A stretch of DNA of 64,000 bases from Bacteroidota bacterium. Its GTDB lineage: Bacteria; Bacteroidota; Bacteroidia; NS11-12g; UBA955. Under the pieces are notes generated by a model. That model made no database searches and was not told where the DNA came from. It was given only the letters and a program-made list of their open reading frames with translations. Positions within the stretch are counted from its first letter, which is position 1, and the number at the start of each line of letters is the position of its first letter. Shown in pieces: positions 54,555-62,676 of this stretch. A program made the translations under genes and the position numbers. Where the stretch lies: contig JAURFW010000007.1 in the NCBI GenBank assembly GCA_030834125.1, positions 1 to 64,000 on the forward strand, in the 5' to 3' direction.

Positions 54555-56228
54555 CTAGCGGACTTTTTTACCGTCTATGTATGTATGCTTTACTTTTACG
54601 TTATTGAATTTTGACTCTTCAATTTCCATAATGTCCTTGTTGAGAACAACAAAGTCCGCATATTTCCCAATTTCAATACTCCCTTTATAATCATCGGTGA
54701 ATTCTGCACGTGCAGCCCAAAGAGTCATTCCTAATAAAGTCTGTTTTCTGCTTAAACACTGTTGGGGAAGAAACGCTTGCTTCAAATTACCAGAAAGATC
54801 TTTACGAAATACAGAAGAATAAAAAGTAGCGATTGGACTAATACCTTCTACAGGGAAATCTGTTCCTAATGCCACATAACCCATAGAGTCTAGCCAAGTT
54901 TTATAGGCATAAGCACCGTTCTTTGGGTTGTAATTGCTATTTGTATTGCAAATTCTATCAAAAGCCCATAGAGCATCAGAGGTTGCATGTGTTGGTTGGA
55001 TTGACGGAATTACTCCATAATTATGCAGTTTTGCAATATCATTAATATCAACAATTTGTGCATGCTCAATTCTCCATCTTGCATCAAAATCTGGAGCTAA
55101 GATTTTAGTGAAAACATCAATTACAATTTTATTTGCACTATCCCCAATGGCATGAACACACGCCTGATAATTCTTTTGATATAAATAGGTACAATAATAT
55201 CTGAATTCATTTGCGTTCATTAGTTGTAAACCTTTATGATGTACTCTATCGCAATAATCATGTTTTAAAAGAGCTCCACGTGAACCTAAAGCTCCATCCA
55301 AATAAAACTTCATAGAACGTACTCGAAGTTTTTCAGATTGGGGGATATCATTTCTGCTAATGTGATTTAGATTTTCTTGATTGACACTCAACATAGCATT
55401 CACACGAATGGGTAATGCGCCATTTGTTTGTTGATTATGAATGAATTGAATTTCATTATAACTCAAACCTGCCTCTGAAACTGAGGTAATACCAGATTTT
55501 AAAAGATCCTCAGTACCGCATTTTAAGGCCTTAATCATTACATCTTCATCCATATCCGGAATCATATCTTGAATCCAATCAGCCGCATTATCTATAAAAA
55601 CTCCAGATGATTGTCCATTGCTTAGTTTGAGAATTTCTCCGCCTGTAATTATCGTATCATAATTCAAGTTTAAATGCTCTAATGCCGCCTTGTTTAGCCA
55701 AATGGCATGGCCATCTACACGGCTTAAGCAGGTTGGAATTTTGGTTGCTCCATTTAAATCTTCAAAATTCGGAAACTCCTGTACTTCCCAATTATTCTGA
55801 TCCCAACCTCTTCCAACTATCCACTTTCTCTTTTTATTTTTGCAAGCAAACTTTTTAAGTTTTTTACGAACCTCTATTTTTGAGGATGTACCAAATAATT
55901 GTAATTCTTCGGTTCCCCTGCAATATGCAAGAAAATGGCAATGTGCATCATTAAAACCTGGGTATATGTACCCATTATGTTTAACCAAAGTTGCATCTGG
56001 AAAAGTCATTTTTGCTGAATCTAAGTTTCCAGTGAATTGGATTATACCTTTTTGGGTCACAAAACATTCAATAATATCAAAAGAATCATTTGCGCAATAA
56101 ATTTTCTTAGCAGTATGAATTTCAATAGTTTGTTGTCCCCAACTTGTATTTATTGAAAATAAAAAGATAAAAATTTTCCAAACTTTTTGGGGGATAGTCA
56201 TCTTAATATTGTTAGAATTAGTGAACAT
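54555..56228 (-). CDS. Exported amidohydrolase, YtcJ-like (amidohydrolase family 3)
   Basis: A 557-residue metal-dependent hydrolase with a signal peptide (KVWKIFIFLFSINTSWGQ). Metal and active-site motifs in order: DAHCHFLAY (HxH), SRVDGHAIWLN, KFYLDGALGSRGAL, HAIGDSANK, RIEHAQIVD and GTDFPVEGISP. Substrate unknown. The first ATG (56228) is kept because a -7 box lies 5 bases before it; a second ATG at 56201 also precedes the signal peptide. The C terminus ends with the beta-sandwich KYADFVVLNKDI. Confidence 0.93.
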   Translation of the reverse strand: MFTNSNNIKMTIPQKVWKIFIFLFSINTSWGQQTIEIHTAKKIYCANDSFDIIECFVTQKGIIQFTGNLDSAKMTFPDATLVKHNGYIYPGFNDAHCHFLAYCRGTEELQLFGTSSKIEVRKKLKKFACKNKKRKWIVGRGWDQNNWEVQEFPNFEDLNGATKIPTCLSRVDGHAIWLNKAALEHLNLNYDTIITGGEILKLSNGQSSGVFIDNAADWIQDMIPDMDEDVMIKALKCGTEDLLKSGITSVSEAGLSYNEIQFIHNQQTNGALPIRVNAMLSVNQENLNHISRNDIPQSEKLRVRSMKFYLDGALGSRGALLKHDYCDRVHHKGLQLMNANEFRYYCTYLYQKNYQACVHAIGDSANKIVIDVFTKILAPDFDARWRIEHAQIVDINDIAKLHNYGVIPSIQPTHATSDALWAFDRICNTNSNYNPKNGAYAYKTWLDSMGYVALGTDFPVEGISPIATFYSSVFRKDLSGNLKQAFLPQQCLSRKQTLLGMTLWAARAEFTDDYKGSIEIGKYADFVVLNKDIMEIEESKFNNVKVKHTYIDGKKVR

Positions 56229-56251: not shown

Positions 56252-56701
56252 ATGAAAAAAGTTGGATTAATTATCTTAATTATTGTTGCCATAGCCATAG
56301 TAACCGGTCTGTTTTTATGGTTTCAACCTACTTCTAAGGTTGCGGATGGTGAAGCAGACTTCCAAATATCGATTGAAGCACTAGTAAATGAAGGAATTGA
56401 AACCGACGATAGTTTATTTAATGACAAATATGTAGATAAGGTGATTCAGTTTAGTGGTGATGTATATTCATTAAATATAGGGGATTCTCAAAGTGAAATT
56501 CAATTAGATCCGAACACAGACGAAACGGTCATAGTAAGAGCTTCTTTTGATCCTTCCCAGAATTCTGATCTAAAAAAAATAACTGAAGGCGATTCCGTTA
56601 AATGTCAATGCAAATTCAACGGAATTTCTATCCCAAGAGACCCAGATGATCTATTGTCTGAGATAATAGTTACTTTTAGCCGTTGTACAATAAAAAAATA
56701 A
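56252..56701 (+). CDS. Membrane-anchored OB-fold protein, tRNA_anti-like family
   Basis: A 149-residue protein: one N-terminal membrane helix (about 4-23, GLIILIIVAIAIVTGLFLWF), then a small beta-rich domain (DKYVDKVIQFSGDVYSL ... GDSVKCQCKFNGI ... EIIVTFSRCTIKK). This is the pattern of the periplasmic tRNA_anti-like/OB-fold family common in Bacteroidota; despite the name no tRNA binding is implied. First gene of the YceI-cytochrome-DUF5777 cluster; 5 bases separate its stop from the yceI ATG. Confidence 0.75.
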   Translation: MKKVGLIILIIVAIAIVTGLFLWFQPTSKVADGEADFQISIEALVNEGIETDDSLFNDKYVDKVIQFSGDVYSLNIGDSQSEIQLDPNTDETVIVRASFDPSQNSDLKKITEGDSVKCQCKFNGISIPRDPDDLLSEIIVTFSRCTIKK

Positions 56702-56706
56702 TCATA

Positions 56707-57264
56707 ATGAAAAAATATTCAATCATCTTACTTATGGCTTCAATTTTCTTCATTGGAGCCGCATTCTCTCAGGTTTACACAAGCTCAGAAGGTAGTATTA
56801 GGTTTGTTAGTAAAACAGATTTTGAAGAATTCGAAGCAGTGAATCACCAACCTAGTGTTGCAATGTCAAGCAATGGTAAAGTACAGTTTCGAGTGCCGGT
56901 AAACTCCTTCGAATTTGAGAAAAAACTTATGCAAACACACTTTCAAGAAAATTACATGGAATCAAGCAAGTTCCCTAATGCAGAATTTAAAGGTACTATA
57001 ATTGAACCTGATAACTTCAAGCTTAAAGACGGTAAGCAAGAAGTTAAAGTTAAGGGAATAATGGAAATTCACGGTGTAGTAAAAGAGATTGAAGCAACTG
57101 GAACTATCAAAAAAACAAAGAATGAAGTTATAATGTTCGGCAATTTCGATATCTTATTGAGTGATTACAAAATCAATATTCCCAAAAATAACATCAACCA
57201 AATTTCGAATACTATAACTATACATTTAGAAGCGAAGTTGGAACCTAAAAAATCTAAAAACTAA
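56707..57264 (+). CDS. YceI family periplasmic protein
   Basis: A 185-residue lipocalin-like protein; ATG at 56707 gives the signal peptide KKYSIILLMASIFFIGAAFSQ. An in-frame non-ATG start 24 bases upstream lies inside the preceding gene and is rejected. Family motifs: EGSIRFVSKTDFEEFEA, FPNAEFKGTI and VKGIMEIHGVVKEIEATGTI. YceI proteins bind polyisoprenoids or quinones in a hydrophobic barrel. Its place beside a cytochrome suggests a redox or quinone role; this is inference. Confidence 0.9.
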   Translation: MKKYSIILLMASIFFIGAAFSQVYTSSEGSIRFVSKTDFEEFEAVNHQPSVAMSSNGKVQFRVPVNSFEFEKKLMQTHFQENYMESSKFPNAEFKGTIIEPDNFKLKDGKQEVKVKGIMEIHGVVKEIEATGTIKKTKNEVIMFGNFDILLSDYKINIPKNNINQISNTITIHLEAKLEPKKSKN

Positions 57265-57275
57265 AAAAGCTATTA

Positions 57276-57405
57276 ATGAAAAATTTATCTCTCTTTAGTT
57301 TAGTTGCTCTTTTAGCGTCTACATTTTTATTTTCATGTAAACATGACTGATTGTGAAATCAAACAACTTGAAAAATGGATAAATGATGGCTGTCCGCAAA
57401 ACTAA
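57276..57405 (+). pseudogene. Remnant of a c-type cytochrome lipoprotein gene (internal deletion)
   Basis: An ATG at 57276 opens a perfect lipoprotein signal, KNLSLFSLVALLASTFLFSC, then KHD and TGA at 57348. Overlapping in the next frame (57343-57405) is TDCEIKQLEKWINDGCPQN and a stop, which matches the end of this family of small cytochromes (compare NISKLEAWINQGMKP at the end of the neighbour). The head and tail of one gene survive; the heme-binding middle is gone and the frames do not join. The tail overlaps the start of the intact cytochrome gene. Confidence 0.72.
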
Positions 57406-57763
57406 AATATTCATATTATCAATGTCGATAGTCGTTGGAATATCATCTTGTTACAACGACAATTTGGAAGATTTATACGGAGTTCAATCTTGCGATACAA
57501 CTAGCGTAACTTACAGCGCTGATATTAGTCCAATAATTAATAGTCAGTGTGCTAGTTGTCATTCAAGTAATTCGCCTTCAGCAGGTATTTCTATTCATGA
57601 CTATTCATCTGCAGTTTCTTATGTAAATTCCAGTAAAACTAAACTTTTAGGTTCGGTTAAATGGGATGGAACAGCAAGTAATATGCCCAAAGGGGGCAGC
57701 AAGTGGAATGCTTGTAATATATCAAAACTTGAAGCTTGGATTAATCAGGGAATGAAGCCATGA
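57383..57763 (+). CDS. Small c-type cytochrome lipoprotein
   Basis: A 126-residue protein with a lipoprotein signal (KIFILSMSIVVGISSC, Cys23). The heme site is CASCH (Cys56, Cys59, His60) and a likely axial Met is Met101 in NMPKGG. The tail ISKLEAWINQGMKP is the standard C-terminal helix. It is probably anchored in the outer membrane facing the periplasm or surface. A second ATG follows the first directly. Its stop overlaps the first DUF5777 gene by 4 bases. Confidence 0.92.
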   Translation: MMAVRKTKIFILSMSIVVGISSCYNDNLEDLYGVQSCDTTSVTYSADISPIINSQCASCHSSNSPSAGISIHDYSSAVSYVNSSKTKLLGSVKWDGTASNMPKGGSKWNACNISKLEAWINQGMKP

Positions 57764-58686
57764 GTACATTTTCTTTTTCGAAATGGTTGGCAACCTATAT
57801 TTTGGCGCCAGTAGTTTCTTTGTTTGGAGGAAGTAATACTACGGACTCAACCAATAGTAATATTGATTCGATTCACTTAATTGCAGTTGAAACCCCAAAA
57901 GTAGTTGTAGATAATAATAAGCCGCTCACGGAAACTAAGGCCAACTTTAAAAGTTTACGCTTAATAACTGGTCAAACTACAGCCACTCTTCCGAAAGGTA
58001 CGTTTGAAGTTAGTATTCAACATCGGTTTGGAACCATCTCCTCTGGATCAGAAAATCTTTGGGGTATTGATAACCTGAATAGCATGCGAATTGGGTTTGA
58101 TTTAGCCTTAGGTAATAGATTAACAATTGGAGCAGGGAGATCATCACTTCAGAAAACCTATAATTCATATGCCAAATTGAATATGTTTGGAGGATTTGAC
58201 GAAAAATTGCAACTTAGTTTTTTGTCAGACTTTGCTTTTGATGGACGTAAAAAAGATGATTGGGGGTATGATCCTTTCTTCTTTTCTCATCGACTGATGT
58301 TCACAAATCAACTTTTGATCTCTTATCAAATGGGTGAAAATTTTGTTCTCGGTATTTCTCCTGGGGTAGTGCATTTTAATTTGGTTGATGTAAGCACGAG
58401 ATCCAATTTAATGCCAATTGTGTCCTCATATGCGCGGTTGCAATTAATTCCAAAACTCGCTTTAACAGCTGAGGCAAGCACAATTGTTCAAGGTATAAAT
58501 AATCCATACGAAAAATCAACACCCACCTATGGAATTGGGTTTGAATATTTTACTGCTCGACATGTTTTTCAGATTAATCTTACAAATTCACGATCAATGA
58601 ATGAACCATATTTTTTGGTGACTGATCCTACTTTTGCGAGTATTACTCAGTTTTGTTTGGGCTTTAATTTAATTAGAAGATGGTAA
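57760..58686 (+). CDS. DUF5777 family putative outer-membrane beta-barrel, copy 1
   Basis: A 308-residue protein with a weak hydrophobic N terminus (WLATYILAPVVSLFGG) and a Thr/Asn-rich linker, then a barrel-like domain: LPKGTFEVSIQHRFGTISSG, GIDNLNSMRIGFDLALGNRLTIGAGRS, and a C-terminal strand ITQFCLGFNLIRRW. The pattern matches DUF5777. ATGA overlap with the cytochrome gene indicates coupling. Function unknown. Confidence 0.82.
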   Translation: MSTFSFSKWLATYILAPVVSLFGGSNTTDSTNSNIDSIHLIAVETPKVVVDNNKPLTETKANFKSLRLITGQTTATLPKGTFEVSIQHRFGTISSGSENLWGIDNLNSMRIGFDLALGNRLTIGAGRSSLQKTYNSYAKLNMFGGFDEKLQLSFLSDFAFDGRKKDDWGYDPFFFSHRLMFTNQLLISYQMGENFVLGISPGVVHFNLVDVSTRSNLMPIVSSYARLQLIPKLALTAEASTIVQGINNPYEKSTPTYGIGFEYFTARHVFQINLTNSRSMNEPYFLVTDPTFASITQFCLGFNLIRRW

Positions 58687-59561
58687 GAAAAGTAATAATA
58701 GCGTTAGTCTTCTTAAATACCATTTTCTTAGGAGCTCAAGATGATGGTTTTGATTTGTTAGGAGATGAGGAAGATCAAGTTTATTCAGTTAATTATGCCT
58801 TCAAAACAACCAAAGTTGTAAATCTTCAAAGTCTGGAAATTACAGATTTCGGTGTACTTGATTTTAAAATGATGCATCGATTTGGATCAATAAACAATGG
58901 TCCGGTTGAGGCTTTTGGGTTAGATCAAGCAACTGTTAGATTTGGATTAGAATATGGAATAGTTGAAAACCTAATGATTTCCATGGGTAGAAGTAATGTT
59001 CTAGGAAATAAAAATTTAGATGCATTCCTAAAGTATAGAATTTTACAACAAAATACTGATAATTCTATTCCAGTAACAGTAATTGCTCTGGGGGGAGCTC
59101 AATATTTATTAGGTTCTGTACATGATTCTAAAACTCAAATGGATCGCTCTTCATTATTTGGACAAATAATAATTGGGAGAAAATTCACAGAAGATTTATC
59201 CATCGAGATTGCCCCTACATGGCTTACAAATGCTAAAAATCCCATAATTAGTGGCCCATGGGTTCATCATCAACATCAATGGGCAATAGGAATAGGTATG
59301 CGTCAGAAAATTACACCACGAAGCAGTATAAACCTTGAATACATTCCTGTATTAACCAATAAAGGAGATGTATTCAATAGTTTTTCAGTGGGCATGGATG
59401 TTGAAACTGGTGGACACGTATTTCAATTTCAGTTAACAAACAGTATTGGATTAAATGAAGCGCAATTCATTAGTAACACCAATGAACAATGGAATAACAC
59501 CGGAATAAGATTAGGATTTAATTTATCTCGCGTATTTACAATCGTGAAACCTAAACTCTAA
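58680..59561 (+). CDS. DUF5777 family putative outer-membrane beta-barrel, copy 2
   Basis: A 293-residue paralogue of the preceding protein with a clear signal peptide (RKVIIALVFLNTIFLGAQ). Matching landmarks: FGVLDFKMMHRFGSINNG, GLDQATVRFGLEYGIVENLMISMGRSNV and the C-terminal strand NTGIRLGFNLSRVF. It overlaps copy 1 by 7 bases and converges on the next gene with a 4-base overlap. Tandem duplication followed by divergence is likely. Confidence 0.83.
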   Translation: MVRKVIIALVFLNTIFLGAQDDGFDLLGDEEDQVYSVNYAFKTTKVVNLQSLEITDFGVLDFKMMHRFGSINNGPVEAFGLDQATVRFGLEYGIVENLMISMGRSNVLGNKNLDAFLKYRILQQNTDNSIPVTVIALGGAQYLLGSVHDSKTQMDRSSLFGQIIIGRKFTEDLSIEIAPTWLTNAKNPIISGPWVHHQHQWAIGIGMRQKITPRSSINLEYIPVLTNKGDVFNSFSVGMDVETGGHVFQFQLTNSIGLNEAQFISNTNEQWNNTGIRLGFNLSRVFTIVKPKL

Positions 59562-61408
59562 TCTTTATTAAGCGATAGTATTTGTTTTGGGGGGATTCCA
59601 TATAATAAGGGATTCCCCTTTTGCAGTCTTACTCGGAGTTTAAATTGCTTTTCAAGTTTATTATGATCTCTATTTTCATAGGATAATCTAAGAGTGCTTT
59701 CATTATTCCAATTTGGAATATCACTCAGTTTTATTGAATGAATAACAATAGAATCATCGATTTTTGTCTTGTTAGATGTATATCTGTAGTCTATCTGTCG
59801 TAGCGATTTATTAAAACTCGGTGTAAAAATTGCAGATACAATATGCCTCTCACCATTTAGTTTATCGTTGCATTCGATAAATATCAAATCATTCTTTTGC
59901 AGCTCTTGGAATGTTTGTGAGATTTCTGAAAAAGAGATGAAGTAATTGCTGTCAATATTTATTGTAATCAATTTTTCATTAATTATGTTCTCTGTTAAAT
60001 GGGCTTTAGAGTAAAGATTAATTTGACTACCAGGAAATGCCCAAAATCCATATTGTGTTCGTGGAATTGGAATTGGATTGAAAATGGAATTCAAAAGTGG
60101 AATGAATTGCTCATCACTTCCTGAATTGGTAATCACATAAAATGAATCTGATTTACTATTGATTTTATTATAACTATTCTCCCAGTCAGCAGCATTAATA
60201 TGAACCATTTTAAGGTGTGGGAATTGATTGCTTTTGTATTCAAATATGTCTTTTGGCCCGTCAAAAAATATCTCAGGTAACGGTTGAGCCGTATCCATTT
60301 CATTTAGGTGCAATAATGGGGAATGATATTTATCTAATTTACAGTTAGAAAAGTGTCTGTTTTCAGCCAATAAACTGATGGTTAGAACTACTGGACTAGT
60401 AAATATTATAATCATCTTAAACCATCTCGGAGCAGCATTGCTAATCCAATGTGCGAAGAAAATAATTAAAAATGGTAGCATGAAATAAAGTACATGATGC
60501 TGGATTATTGGCTTGATCCAAAACGAATATCCCCAAACAATTAAAAAATCTATGAGGAAGATCAGAATAAAATCCCAACGTGCTGATTTCCAATTTTTTT
60601 TCCAGTGGAAATAACATCCTGAAGTAACTAAAACAATGAAAAACGACGCGATTAAATTTGATTGATTAGATACAAAATATAAATGCTCAAAAAGAAATGA
60701 TAAACTCGGCTTACCGAGCCAGCTCAAACCTTTTTCATTTAGCAAATGTTGAGACCAAATATTTATTGCAGGTACTTGAATTATTGCTGCAACAAAAAGA
60801 GATTTAATAGTACTTAAAGTAATTTTATTATTGTGGTAAAAGTCGAAAATAATTAAGCTCAGTATAGAGGTCATAAATGCTATGTAGTGCATATATCCAA
60901 TCAAACCAAGCGTTATTCCGATAAAAGCAAATTGAAATTTTGAATCGCTAGATTTAGATATTAAAACATTTACCAAGATTAATTGAAAAAATAGTGCCAC
61001 TTCATAAGGACGAACCCATATACTCATATCTATTGGAAAATGTAGAAAGCTCCAAAAGATTGAACTTATTACGGCGGTTGAACGGTTGAAACTTCTTAAT
61101 GTTAAAGAATAAATCAAAACCAAATTCAACAAACTGAATAAACACCAAGTAATTTTAAAAGAAGTTTCTGAAGTAAAATAGGAACTAAGTATCCAAACAA
61201 TCGTTTGTATGCCTGCTGGGTGCCCATCAATCATTACACCATTAGAAATATGGTCATTGAAACTTGTATTGTTGATGGCTCTGAACCAGGAACCAAGTTC
61301 ATCCGAATCCATTGGAAACTCATCAATACCCCAAATTCTTAGGATTGCTCCAAAGCAAAATATTATCAAGAAGGGTAGGTGGTAAATTATTGAAGATTTA
61401 CGGATCAA
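59558..61408 (-). CDS. Membrane glycosyltransferase, GT39/ArnT-like architecture
   Basis: A 616-residue protein with about ten to eleven helices in the first ~350 residues and a soluble C-terminal domain. The first extracytoplasmic loop reads WGIDEFPMDSDELGSWFRAI, with the acidic DE pair typical of GT-C enzymes that use lipid-linked sugars, and GVMIDGHPAGIQTIVWIL follows. Donor and acceptor unknown. It overlaps the upstream gene by 4 bases (ATGA), so it is the last gene of a crcB-led unit. Confidence 0.78.
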   Translation of the reverse strand: MIRKSSIIYHLPFLIIFCFGAILRIWGIDEFPMDSDELGSWFRAINNTSFNDHISNGVMIDGHPAGIQTIVWILSSYFTSETSFKITWCLFSLLNLVLIYSLTLRSFNRSTAVISSIFWSFLHFPIDMSIWVRPYEVALFFQLILVNVLISKSSDSKFQFAFIGITLGLIGYMHYIAFMTSILSLIIFDFYHNNKITLSTIKSLFVAAIIQVPAINIWSQHLLNEKGLSWLGKPSLSFLFEHLYFVSNQSNLIASFFIVLVTSGCYFHWKKNWKSARWDFILIFLIDFLIVWGYSFWIKPIIQHHVLYFMLPFLIIFFAHWISNAAPRWFKMIIIFTSPVVLTISLLAENRHFSNCKLDKYHSPLLHLNEMDTAQPLPEIFFDGPKDIFEYKSNQFPHLKMVHINAADWENSYNKINSKSDSFYVITNSGSDEQFIPLLNSIFNPIPIPRTQYGFWAFPGSQINLYSKAHLTENIINEKLITINIDSNYFISFSEISQTFQELQKNDLIFIECNDKLNGERHIVSAIFTPSFNKSLRQIDYRYTSNKTKIDDSIVIHSIKLSDIPNWNNESTLRLSYENRDHNKLEKQFKLRVRLQKGNPLLYGIPPKQILSLNKD

Positions 61409-62676
61409 GTTTTTTGCTTAGATTTTTGTGCCGATGGAAATAGGATATTATTTAATATTAATCGATATCCTGGACTGTTTGGATGTAAATTTAAATCAGT
61501 AGGGGGTTCGCCAACATGATGCTGATAATCTTCTGGATCATGACCACCATAAAATGTCCATGTACCTTTCCCCATAGAGCCATGTATATACCTAGCCTCG
61601 CCAAGTAGTGCATTTTCTCCCATCACTAGAACATCGCTTTTTATAAGTTCCTTGTTAAAGGCTGTTGTTTGACCCATAAATCCTCTAATAGTTCTTGTAT
61701 GATTCTGGCATAAAATGCTTGGTATAAGGTCCCATTTTGCAGAATAATCGAAAAGAGTAAATAAATCGTTTTCCTCTTTTACATTTCGCGTTACCGGGTT
61801 AACATCTATATCAGAATATTCATAGATGTATGGGTTGCTTTCGAGTTTGAAGTTTTTAAATGCAAAACAAGCTTCGTAATCAAGTTGATTTTGAGCATTT
61901 GGAGACGCAGGGTCACCATCGAACATAACCTCACAAATATCAGTTTCTTGCGCAGCAAGAGCTATATCGTAGGTATCGGTGGCGCTGCACATTGCAAATA
62001 GAAAGCCACCGCCTAAACAAAAATCACGAATCTGCCTTACTACTTCTCGCTTTAATTCTCGTGCACTATTAAATCCATGTTTCCTTGCCATCGATTCAGT
62101 TTCTTCTACCTGTGATTTATACCAAGGTGCATTTGCATAAGATGCCCAAAACTTACCATATTGACCGGTAAAGTCTTCATGATGTAAATGTAACCAATCG
62201 TATTCTGGTAGTTTTTTATTTAATACTTCATCATCGTAGATTACGGTGTAAGGAATTTCAGCATAGGTTAATACTAATGTTACTGCATCGTCCCAGGGTT
62301 GTTTGGTTTTTGGCGAATAAACGGCAATTTTTGGTGCCGTTAATAATTTCACCATATTCATGTTTACAGAAGGGTTTGATATTGTAGTTTCGATTGAATT
62401 GGATTCAGATTCTGAGATTACTTCAAATGAAACTCCTCTGGTTTTGCATTCGGTTTCAGCTATAGAACTGTATGTTGTTGAAAAACTTCCTCCTCGGTAA
62501 TTTAATAGCCATAACACCTCAGTTTGTTGTTTTTCTAACAGCCAATAGGCAAGCCCGTACGCTTTTAAATGATTTTTTTGAGACTCGTCCATTGGGATAA
62601 TTATTTTACTACCCCACAATATTTGTGAGCTTCCAAAGAAAAAGAAAAATATTAAACCAACTTTTGTCCTAACCAT
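61405..62676 (-). CDS. Exported protein commonly annotated 'asparagine synthetase B' in Bacteroidota; function unclear
   Basis: A 423-residue protein with a signal peptide (GLIFFFFFGSSQILWGS). Conserved patches include IIPMDESQKNHLKAYGLAYW, KIAVYSPKTKQPWDDAVTLV, YDWLHLHHEDFTGQYG, GGGFLFAMCSATDTYDIALAA and GTWTFYGGHDPEDYQHH. The central fold looks like a class I glutamine amidotransferase-type domain with Cys in FAMCSATDT. Real AsnB domains (N-terminal nucleophile Cys, ATP pyrophosphatase) are absent and the protein is exported, so the customary name is doubtful. Confidence 0.75.
   Translation of the reverse strand: MVRTKVGLIFFFFFGSSQILWGSKIIIPMDESQKNHLKAYGLAYWLLEKQQTEVLWLLNYRGGSFSTTYSSIAETECKTRGVSFEVISESESNSIETTISNPSVNMNMVKLLTAPKIAVYSPKTKQPWDDAVTLVLTYAEIPYTVIYDDEVLNKKLPEYDWLHLHHEDFTGQYGKFWASYANAPWYKSQVEETESMARKHGFNSARELKREVVRQIRDFCLGGGFLFAMCSATDTYDIALAAQETDICEVMFDGDPASPNAQNQLDYEACFAFKNFKLESNPYIYEYSDIDVNPVTRNVKEENDLFTLFDYSAKWDLIPSILCQNHTRTIRGFMGQTTAFNKELIKSDVLVMGENALLGEARYIHGSMGKGTWTFYGGHDPEDYQHHVGEPPTDLNLHPNSPGYRLILNNILFPSAQKSKQKT

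Follow-up and report, generated by a model that had tools for sequence, protein, structure and literature searches.

The window, that is, the whole 64,000-nucleotide stretch of DNA analyzed here, comes from a 2.3-Mb genome assembly in 94 contigs. ORF calls combined with Pfam matches placed on the plus strand, with unchanged coordinates, all five genes named in the sequence-only reading of this DNA: an OB-fold protein (56252 to 56701, 149 aa; PF12869, tRNA_anti-like, E value of 1e-7), a YceI lipocalin-type protein (56707 to 57264, 185 aa; PF04264, E value of 7e-16), a mono-heme c-type CxxCH lipoprotein, here called Cyt2 (57383 to 57763, 126 aa), and two DUF5777 barrels (PF19089), B1 (57760 to 58686, E value of 1e-52) and B2 (58680 to 59561, E value of 6e-72). 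In gene order, the spacing is a 5-base gap, a 118-base gap, a 4-base overlap, and a 7-base overlap, so that the same coordinates confirm a five-gene unit that is tightly packed apart from the 118 bases. Scans for promoters and terminators gave no signal exceeding that of shuffled controls. The operon is flanked on one side by a divergent amidohydrolase gene (54555 to 56228, minus strand) and on the other by a convergent gene (59558 to 61408, minus strand) whose product, a membrane protein, weakly matches a glycosyltransferase, an arrangement kept throughout the genus of the window and in several related genera. Next to the latter lies a gene (61405 to 62676, minus strand) for a protein of 423 aa that matched no Pfam family and carries KIIIPMDESQKNHLKAYGLAYWLL following its signal peptide; it is conserved beside the operon in many relatives.

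The 118-base stretch was described as a pseudogene, and it is indeed the remnant of a real gene, Cyt1 (57276 to 57405, plus strand). Its 5' part retains the start ATG at 57276 and a lipoprotein signal peptide, MKNLSLFSLVALLASTFLFSCKHD, in one frame, while its 3' part encodes the last ca. 19 residues, TDCEIKQLEKWINDGCPQN, and the stop codon (57403 to 57405) in a different frame. The two parts align to both ends of a di-heme lipoprotein of ca. 220 residues that is intact at the equivalent position in most relatives. Intact Cyt1 has one heme motif of the CX4CH type and one of the CxxCH type, with a Met-Pro ligand after each, and its lipid-bearing Cys, the heme Cys and His residues, and both Met residues were invariant in 44 sequences. 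In the window, besides the frameshift, an internal deletion took out both heme domains. Cyt1 is also missing or shortened in several further members of the genus and family, so that it is dispensable beside Cyt2. The latter has both features of a c-type cytochrome, a CxxCH motif (C56, C59, and H60) and a distal Met ligand (M101), all of them invariant in 52 sequences, as were the lipobox Cys and the Met-Pro pair.

Both proteins encoded upstream scored above the gathering cutoffs of their families. The OB-fold protein (31.9 bits, cutoff of 23.5) has a hydrophobic N terminus of the uncleaved type, with neither a lipobox nor a clear cleavage site, and is probably anchored in the inner membrane, facing the periplasm. 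The YceI protein (59.4 bits, cutoff of 23.7) carries an ordinary signal peptide and is presumably periplasmic; a genome search found no YceI gene other than that of the operon. Other members of the YceI family bind ubiquinone-8 or isoprenoids (PMC9113575). Given that the window protein is only weakly similar to the YceI proteins of solved structure (best E value of 0.03), quinone binding is a property borrowed from the family. B2 has a signal peptide and a C-terminal strand, while the N terminus of B1 is less clear. Judged by their N termini, the OB-fold protein, YceI, Cyt2, and B2 appear to form an ordered set spanning the envelope.

The barrels were assigned to PF19089 with 179 and 242 bits (gathering cutoff of 23.1), covering model positions 1 to 247, and were modeled with AlphaFold2. 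The predictions bear out the suggestion that DUF5777 is a beta-barrel, with 12 strands in both B1 (pLDDT of 79 and pTM of 0.73) and B2 (pLDDT of 87 and pTM of 0.80), the latter with a porin-like fold. Among the matches listed in the structure searches, we found generic outer-membrane barrels and nothing more specific; the nearest solved folds to B2 were small monomeric porins, namely, the 12-stranded KdgM and NanC and the COG4313 channel. The superposition on KdgM (Z score of 18.5, root mean square deviation of 1.9 over 169 residues) involves only 8% identity, a search of the PDB with the DUF5777 profile gave no match, and there is no sugar-uptake context, so that the likeness to these channels is one of predicted fold only. 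By standard barrel geometry, 12 strands would leave a lumen of ca. 13 Å, compared with roughly 37 to 40 Å for 26 to 28 strands. Since a folded cytochrome c domain is ca. 30 Å across, it would be unable to fit inside a DUF5777 barrel of the predicted width, although a small ligand or mediator could pass through. Neither the B1 nor the B2 chain contains a CxxCH motif.

In order to count partner genes free of ORF-calling bias, loci were analyzed by six-frame profile searches. A scan of genome contigs gave more than 570 confirmed DUF5777 relatives, including those of the isolates Salibacter halophilus and Solirubrum puertoriconensis, and the family was present in 115 of 296 genomes drawn from the whole phylum and in 53 of 57 close relatives. 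The commonest gene order was Cyt1-Cyt2-OB-YceI-DUF5777. At 80 loci from GTDB genomes, a cytochrome was found in 75, YceI in 67, and the OB-fold gene in 67. In the phylum-wide draw, where a partner was counted if it lay within 4 kb on the same strand, 60 DUF5777 loci had a cytochrome in 49 cases, YceI in 50, both in 43, and none in only 3. No operon-type cytochrome was found in 696 kb of distant flanks, which held 15 YceI genes. The grouping of cytochrome, YceI, and DUF5777 is far above chance, and the co-occurrence beyond the lineage of the window, one of the points on which the sequence-only reading had staked its proposal, is there. The exact order Cyt-YceI-DUF5777 occurred in 24 of the 60 loci, and these three genes are the core of the operon; the OB-fold gene is common in just one part of the phylum. 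Genomic co-occurrence with COX1 gave little information, as this gene was present in all 115 genomes with DUF5777 but also in 168 of the 181 others.

Within the family of the window, the operon resolves into two units, OB-YceI-B2 and Cyt1-Cyt2-B1, which lie at separate loci in G019, G020, and G024, while in the genus of the window, the second unit is found between YceI and B2. In a tree of 112 DUF5777 proteins, all B1-type barrels, linked or unlinked, formed one clade (support of 100) and all B2-type barrels another (support of 100), with the joined forms of each making up a single group within their own clade (support of 96 for B1 and 97 for B2). The tree thus shows B1 and B2 to be paralogues of old standing that have been united rather than a recent tandem copy, and the most parsimonious history read from these sequences is that they were brought together one time, with the split state being ancestral. 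There are also DUF5777 loci without YceI and unlinked OB-YceI-B2 loci with no adjoining cytochrome, and the two halves may therefore have separable jobs.

Six intact loci in the phylum-wide draw had YceI-DUF5777 without a cytochrome (one further locus was cut by a contig end). A Rieske [2Fe-2S] protein adjoined the pair in four of them (L183, L188, L232, and L236) and a cupredoxin in one (L223), while L220 had no carrier. Counting the cytochromes, three unrelated one-electron carriers thus fill one role in the operon, and no other single observation argues as strongly that the slot is one for moving electrons. Extra heme genes were also enriched beside the operon (7 of 140 neighbors versus 4 of 582; P = 0.0015). 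In addition, one DUF5777 clade (L063, L064, L226, and L230; support of 100) lies alongside NrfD, a DsrO-like Fe-S subunit, and cytochrome c. Its NrfD and Fe-S subunits are nearest to DsrP and DsrO, but their NCBIfam scores fall below the DsrO, DsrP, and Qrc cutoffs. The likeness is to NrfD/Fe-S quinone modules of the DsrOP or Qrc type, which here adjoin the DUF5777 clade along with cytochromes and, in one genome, YceI; the operon of the window has no such module. L063 additionally encodes two EB_dh heme lipoproteins next to its YceI. The genes at L063 (3609 to 14751), L064, L226, and L230 are a candidate quinone-linked electron transfer cluster of their own. The gene set found across the phylum, the Rieske or cupredoxin replacement, and the NrfD/Fe-S-linked clade lend good support to the proposed envelope redox system.

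Among 93 operon neighbors scanned, 9 carried a type IX secretion (T9SS) sorting tail. The tailed neighbors read one by one include cupredoxins (L189 and L200), a DOMON protein (L195), and CxxCH proteins (L113, L221, and L233), so that in some species, the system may reach the cell surface with some of its parts. The short CxxCH proteins (L221, 1923 to 2798; L113, 5988 to 6791; L233, 7764 to 9398) resemble choice-of-anchor V/Reeler and Temptin_C proteins and are possible surface heme proteins. Directly after the operon, L104 (8032 to 10087) and L116 (4098 to 6165) have a thioredoxin-like gene and one for a T9SS-tailed cytochrome c protein that also holds a copper-monooxygenase-like part (weak match). 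The host of the window itself encodes alternative complex III, one COX1 gene, and 56 T9SS-tail matches. A different kind of neighbor was found at L084 (1925 to 5475) and L072 (8870 to 13171), where a second YceI, a beta-propeller histidine kinase, and a LytTR regulator adjoin the operon, possibly as a lipid- or redox-sensing two-component system. Together with the Crp/Fnr and ECF sigma factor genes near some other loci, these regulators suggest that use of the operon is under regulation and depends on stress or other conditions.

Among known systems, the parallel with the best documentation is that of BcnA/LcoA, in which a YceI lipocalin, together with a cytochrome b561, protects Burkholderia from lipid peroxyl radicals and for which redox cycling of YceI-bound ubiquinone has been proposed (PMC9113575). 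In both cases, YceI is genetically tied to a heme electron carrier of the envelope, and the chemistry proposed is that of a bound quinone. However, there is no b561 gene among the neighbors in the window; the membrane protein is replaced in the Bacteroidota operon by c-type lipoproteins, a Rieske protein, or a cupredoxin, and the operon additionally encodes an OB-fold protein and an outer-membrane barrel. The porin-cytochrome conduits MtrAB/MtoAB and Cyc2, the latter a fused form (PMC8406198), likewise encode an outer-membrane barrel with a heme c protein. They differ in that an MtrAB-type barrel is wide enough to hold the heme protein (26 to 28 strands), while those of the window are predicted to be 12-stranded and narrow; YceI is present here, and instead of a multiheme partner, there is the mono-heme Cyt2, with the di-heme Cyt1 in relatives. 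Unlike in Cyc2, the heme domain and the barrel are separate chains. Literature searches on DUF5777 and on YceI with Bacteroidota cytochromes, covering sources outside subscription journals, found DUF5777 named nowhere and no description of the operon, in keeping with the sequence-only reading, which knew of no pathway described with exactly these genes. A single paper combined YceI, Bacteroidetes, and cytochrome c, an iron-limitation transcriptome sequencing (RNA-seq) list in Riemerella that does not clearly concern this operon. The operon is best regarded as a variant of the redox systems linked to YceI, and there is a fair chance that it is something more distinct.

Gene content, conservation, the swapping of carrier types, and the predicted size of the barrel are the basis of the reading that we favor tentatively, at somewhat less than even odds: an outer-membrane redox module of Bacteroidota made up of a carrier, YceI with a bound isoprenoid or quinone, and a narrow barrel. 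A small lipoprotein carrier, probably anchored to the outer membrane (Cyt2, with Cyt1 in most relatives, and a Rieske protein or cupredoxin elsewhere), would perform one-electron exchange in the periplasm, in the window host with electrons from the menaquinol pool via alternative complex III. The isoprenoid held by YceI would most likely be a quinone or a lipid of membrane origin, and the carrier would reduce or oxidize it; the 12-stranded DUF5777 protein would be a narrow outer-membrane pore or a docking site for a small ligand or redox mediator, and the OB-fold protein would tether the assembly to the inner membrane. We infer the quinone as ligand, the direction of flow, and the roles of the barrel and the OB-fold protein. 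Such a module may serve lipid-damage repair, the supply of surface redox enzymes, or redox sensing.

The sequence-only reading had envisaged a quinol-to-outer-membrane conduit, which is possible, with the barrel as a porin sheath. In an MtrAB- or Cyc2-type conduit, the barrel would enclose the cytochrome, and the overlap and co-occurrence of the two genes would fit. We rejected this arrangement on the predicted width of both barrels, near 13 Å where 26 to 28 strands would give about 37 to 40 Å, and no sheath model predicts that a Rieske protein or cupredoxin can fill the carrier slot, which leaves it very improbable. A merely accidental neighborhood, or genes sharing nothing but a promoter, might be argued from the pseudogene in the window and from the separate loci that the modules occupy in some relatives, but the same set recurs with varying gene order in many of the phylum's families and classes, which contradicts it and makes it the least credible explanation.

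There are two other explanations. In one of them, the lipoprotein carriers deliver electrons outward, either through the outer membrane or around it, to surface acceptors (T9SS redox proteins, copper monooxygenase-like enzymes, minerals, or oxygen), with DUF5777 as part of the passage. The T9SS-tailed redox neighbors at several loci (the six named above, L104, and L116) and the DUF5777 clade linked to NrfD/Fe-S point in this direction, and the acidic residues past the lipid-bearing Cys of Cyt2 (YYDxEE) are reminiscent of surface export signals. Yet the predicted barrels are too narrow for a cytochrome, there is no multiheme wire, and most loci, that of the window included, have no adjoining T9SS redox partner, so that we consider outward delivery unlikely, if worth keeping in mind. 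More doubtful still is a sensor in which the cytochrome and a YceI-bound quinone or oxidized lipid signal the redox state of the envelope to a regulator. Several Saprospiraceae and Chitinophagales have the second YceI, kinase, and LytTR regulator beside the operon, and other loci have Crp/Fnr or ECF sigma genes, but the operon of the window has no adjoining regulator, and elsewhere, regulators differ in type and most loci have none, which fits control of the operon better than a sensing role.

How electrons or oxidized lipids are handled at the outer membrane of Bacteroidota is largely unexplored, and DUF5777 is found in roughly 4 of every 10 genomes of the phylum-wide sample, usually with the operon. 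The interchangeable carrier gives a concrete handle on its function. In its most specific form, which we regard as a rather speculative extension of the redox module, the operon would be a phylum-wide electron transfer system in which an interchangeable carrier works with a YceI-bound quinone, the mobile cofactor between the periplasm and the narrow barrel. If true, this mobile YceI-quinone system would let electrons at the outer membrane of Bacteroidota take a nonsheathed route.
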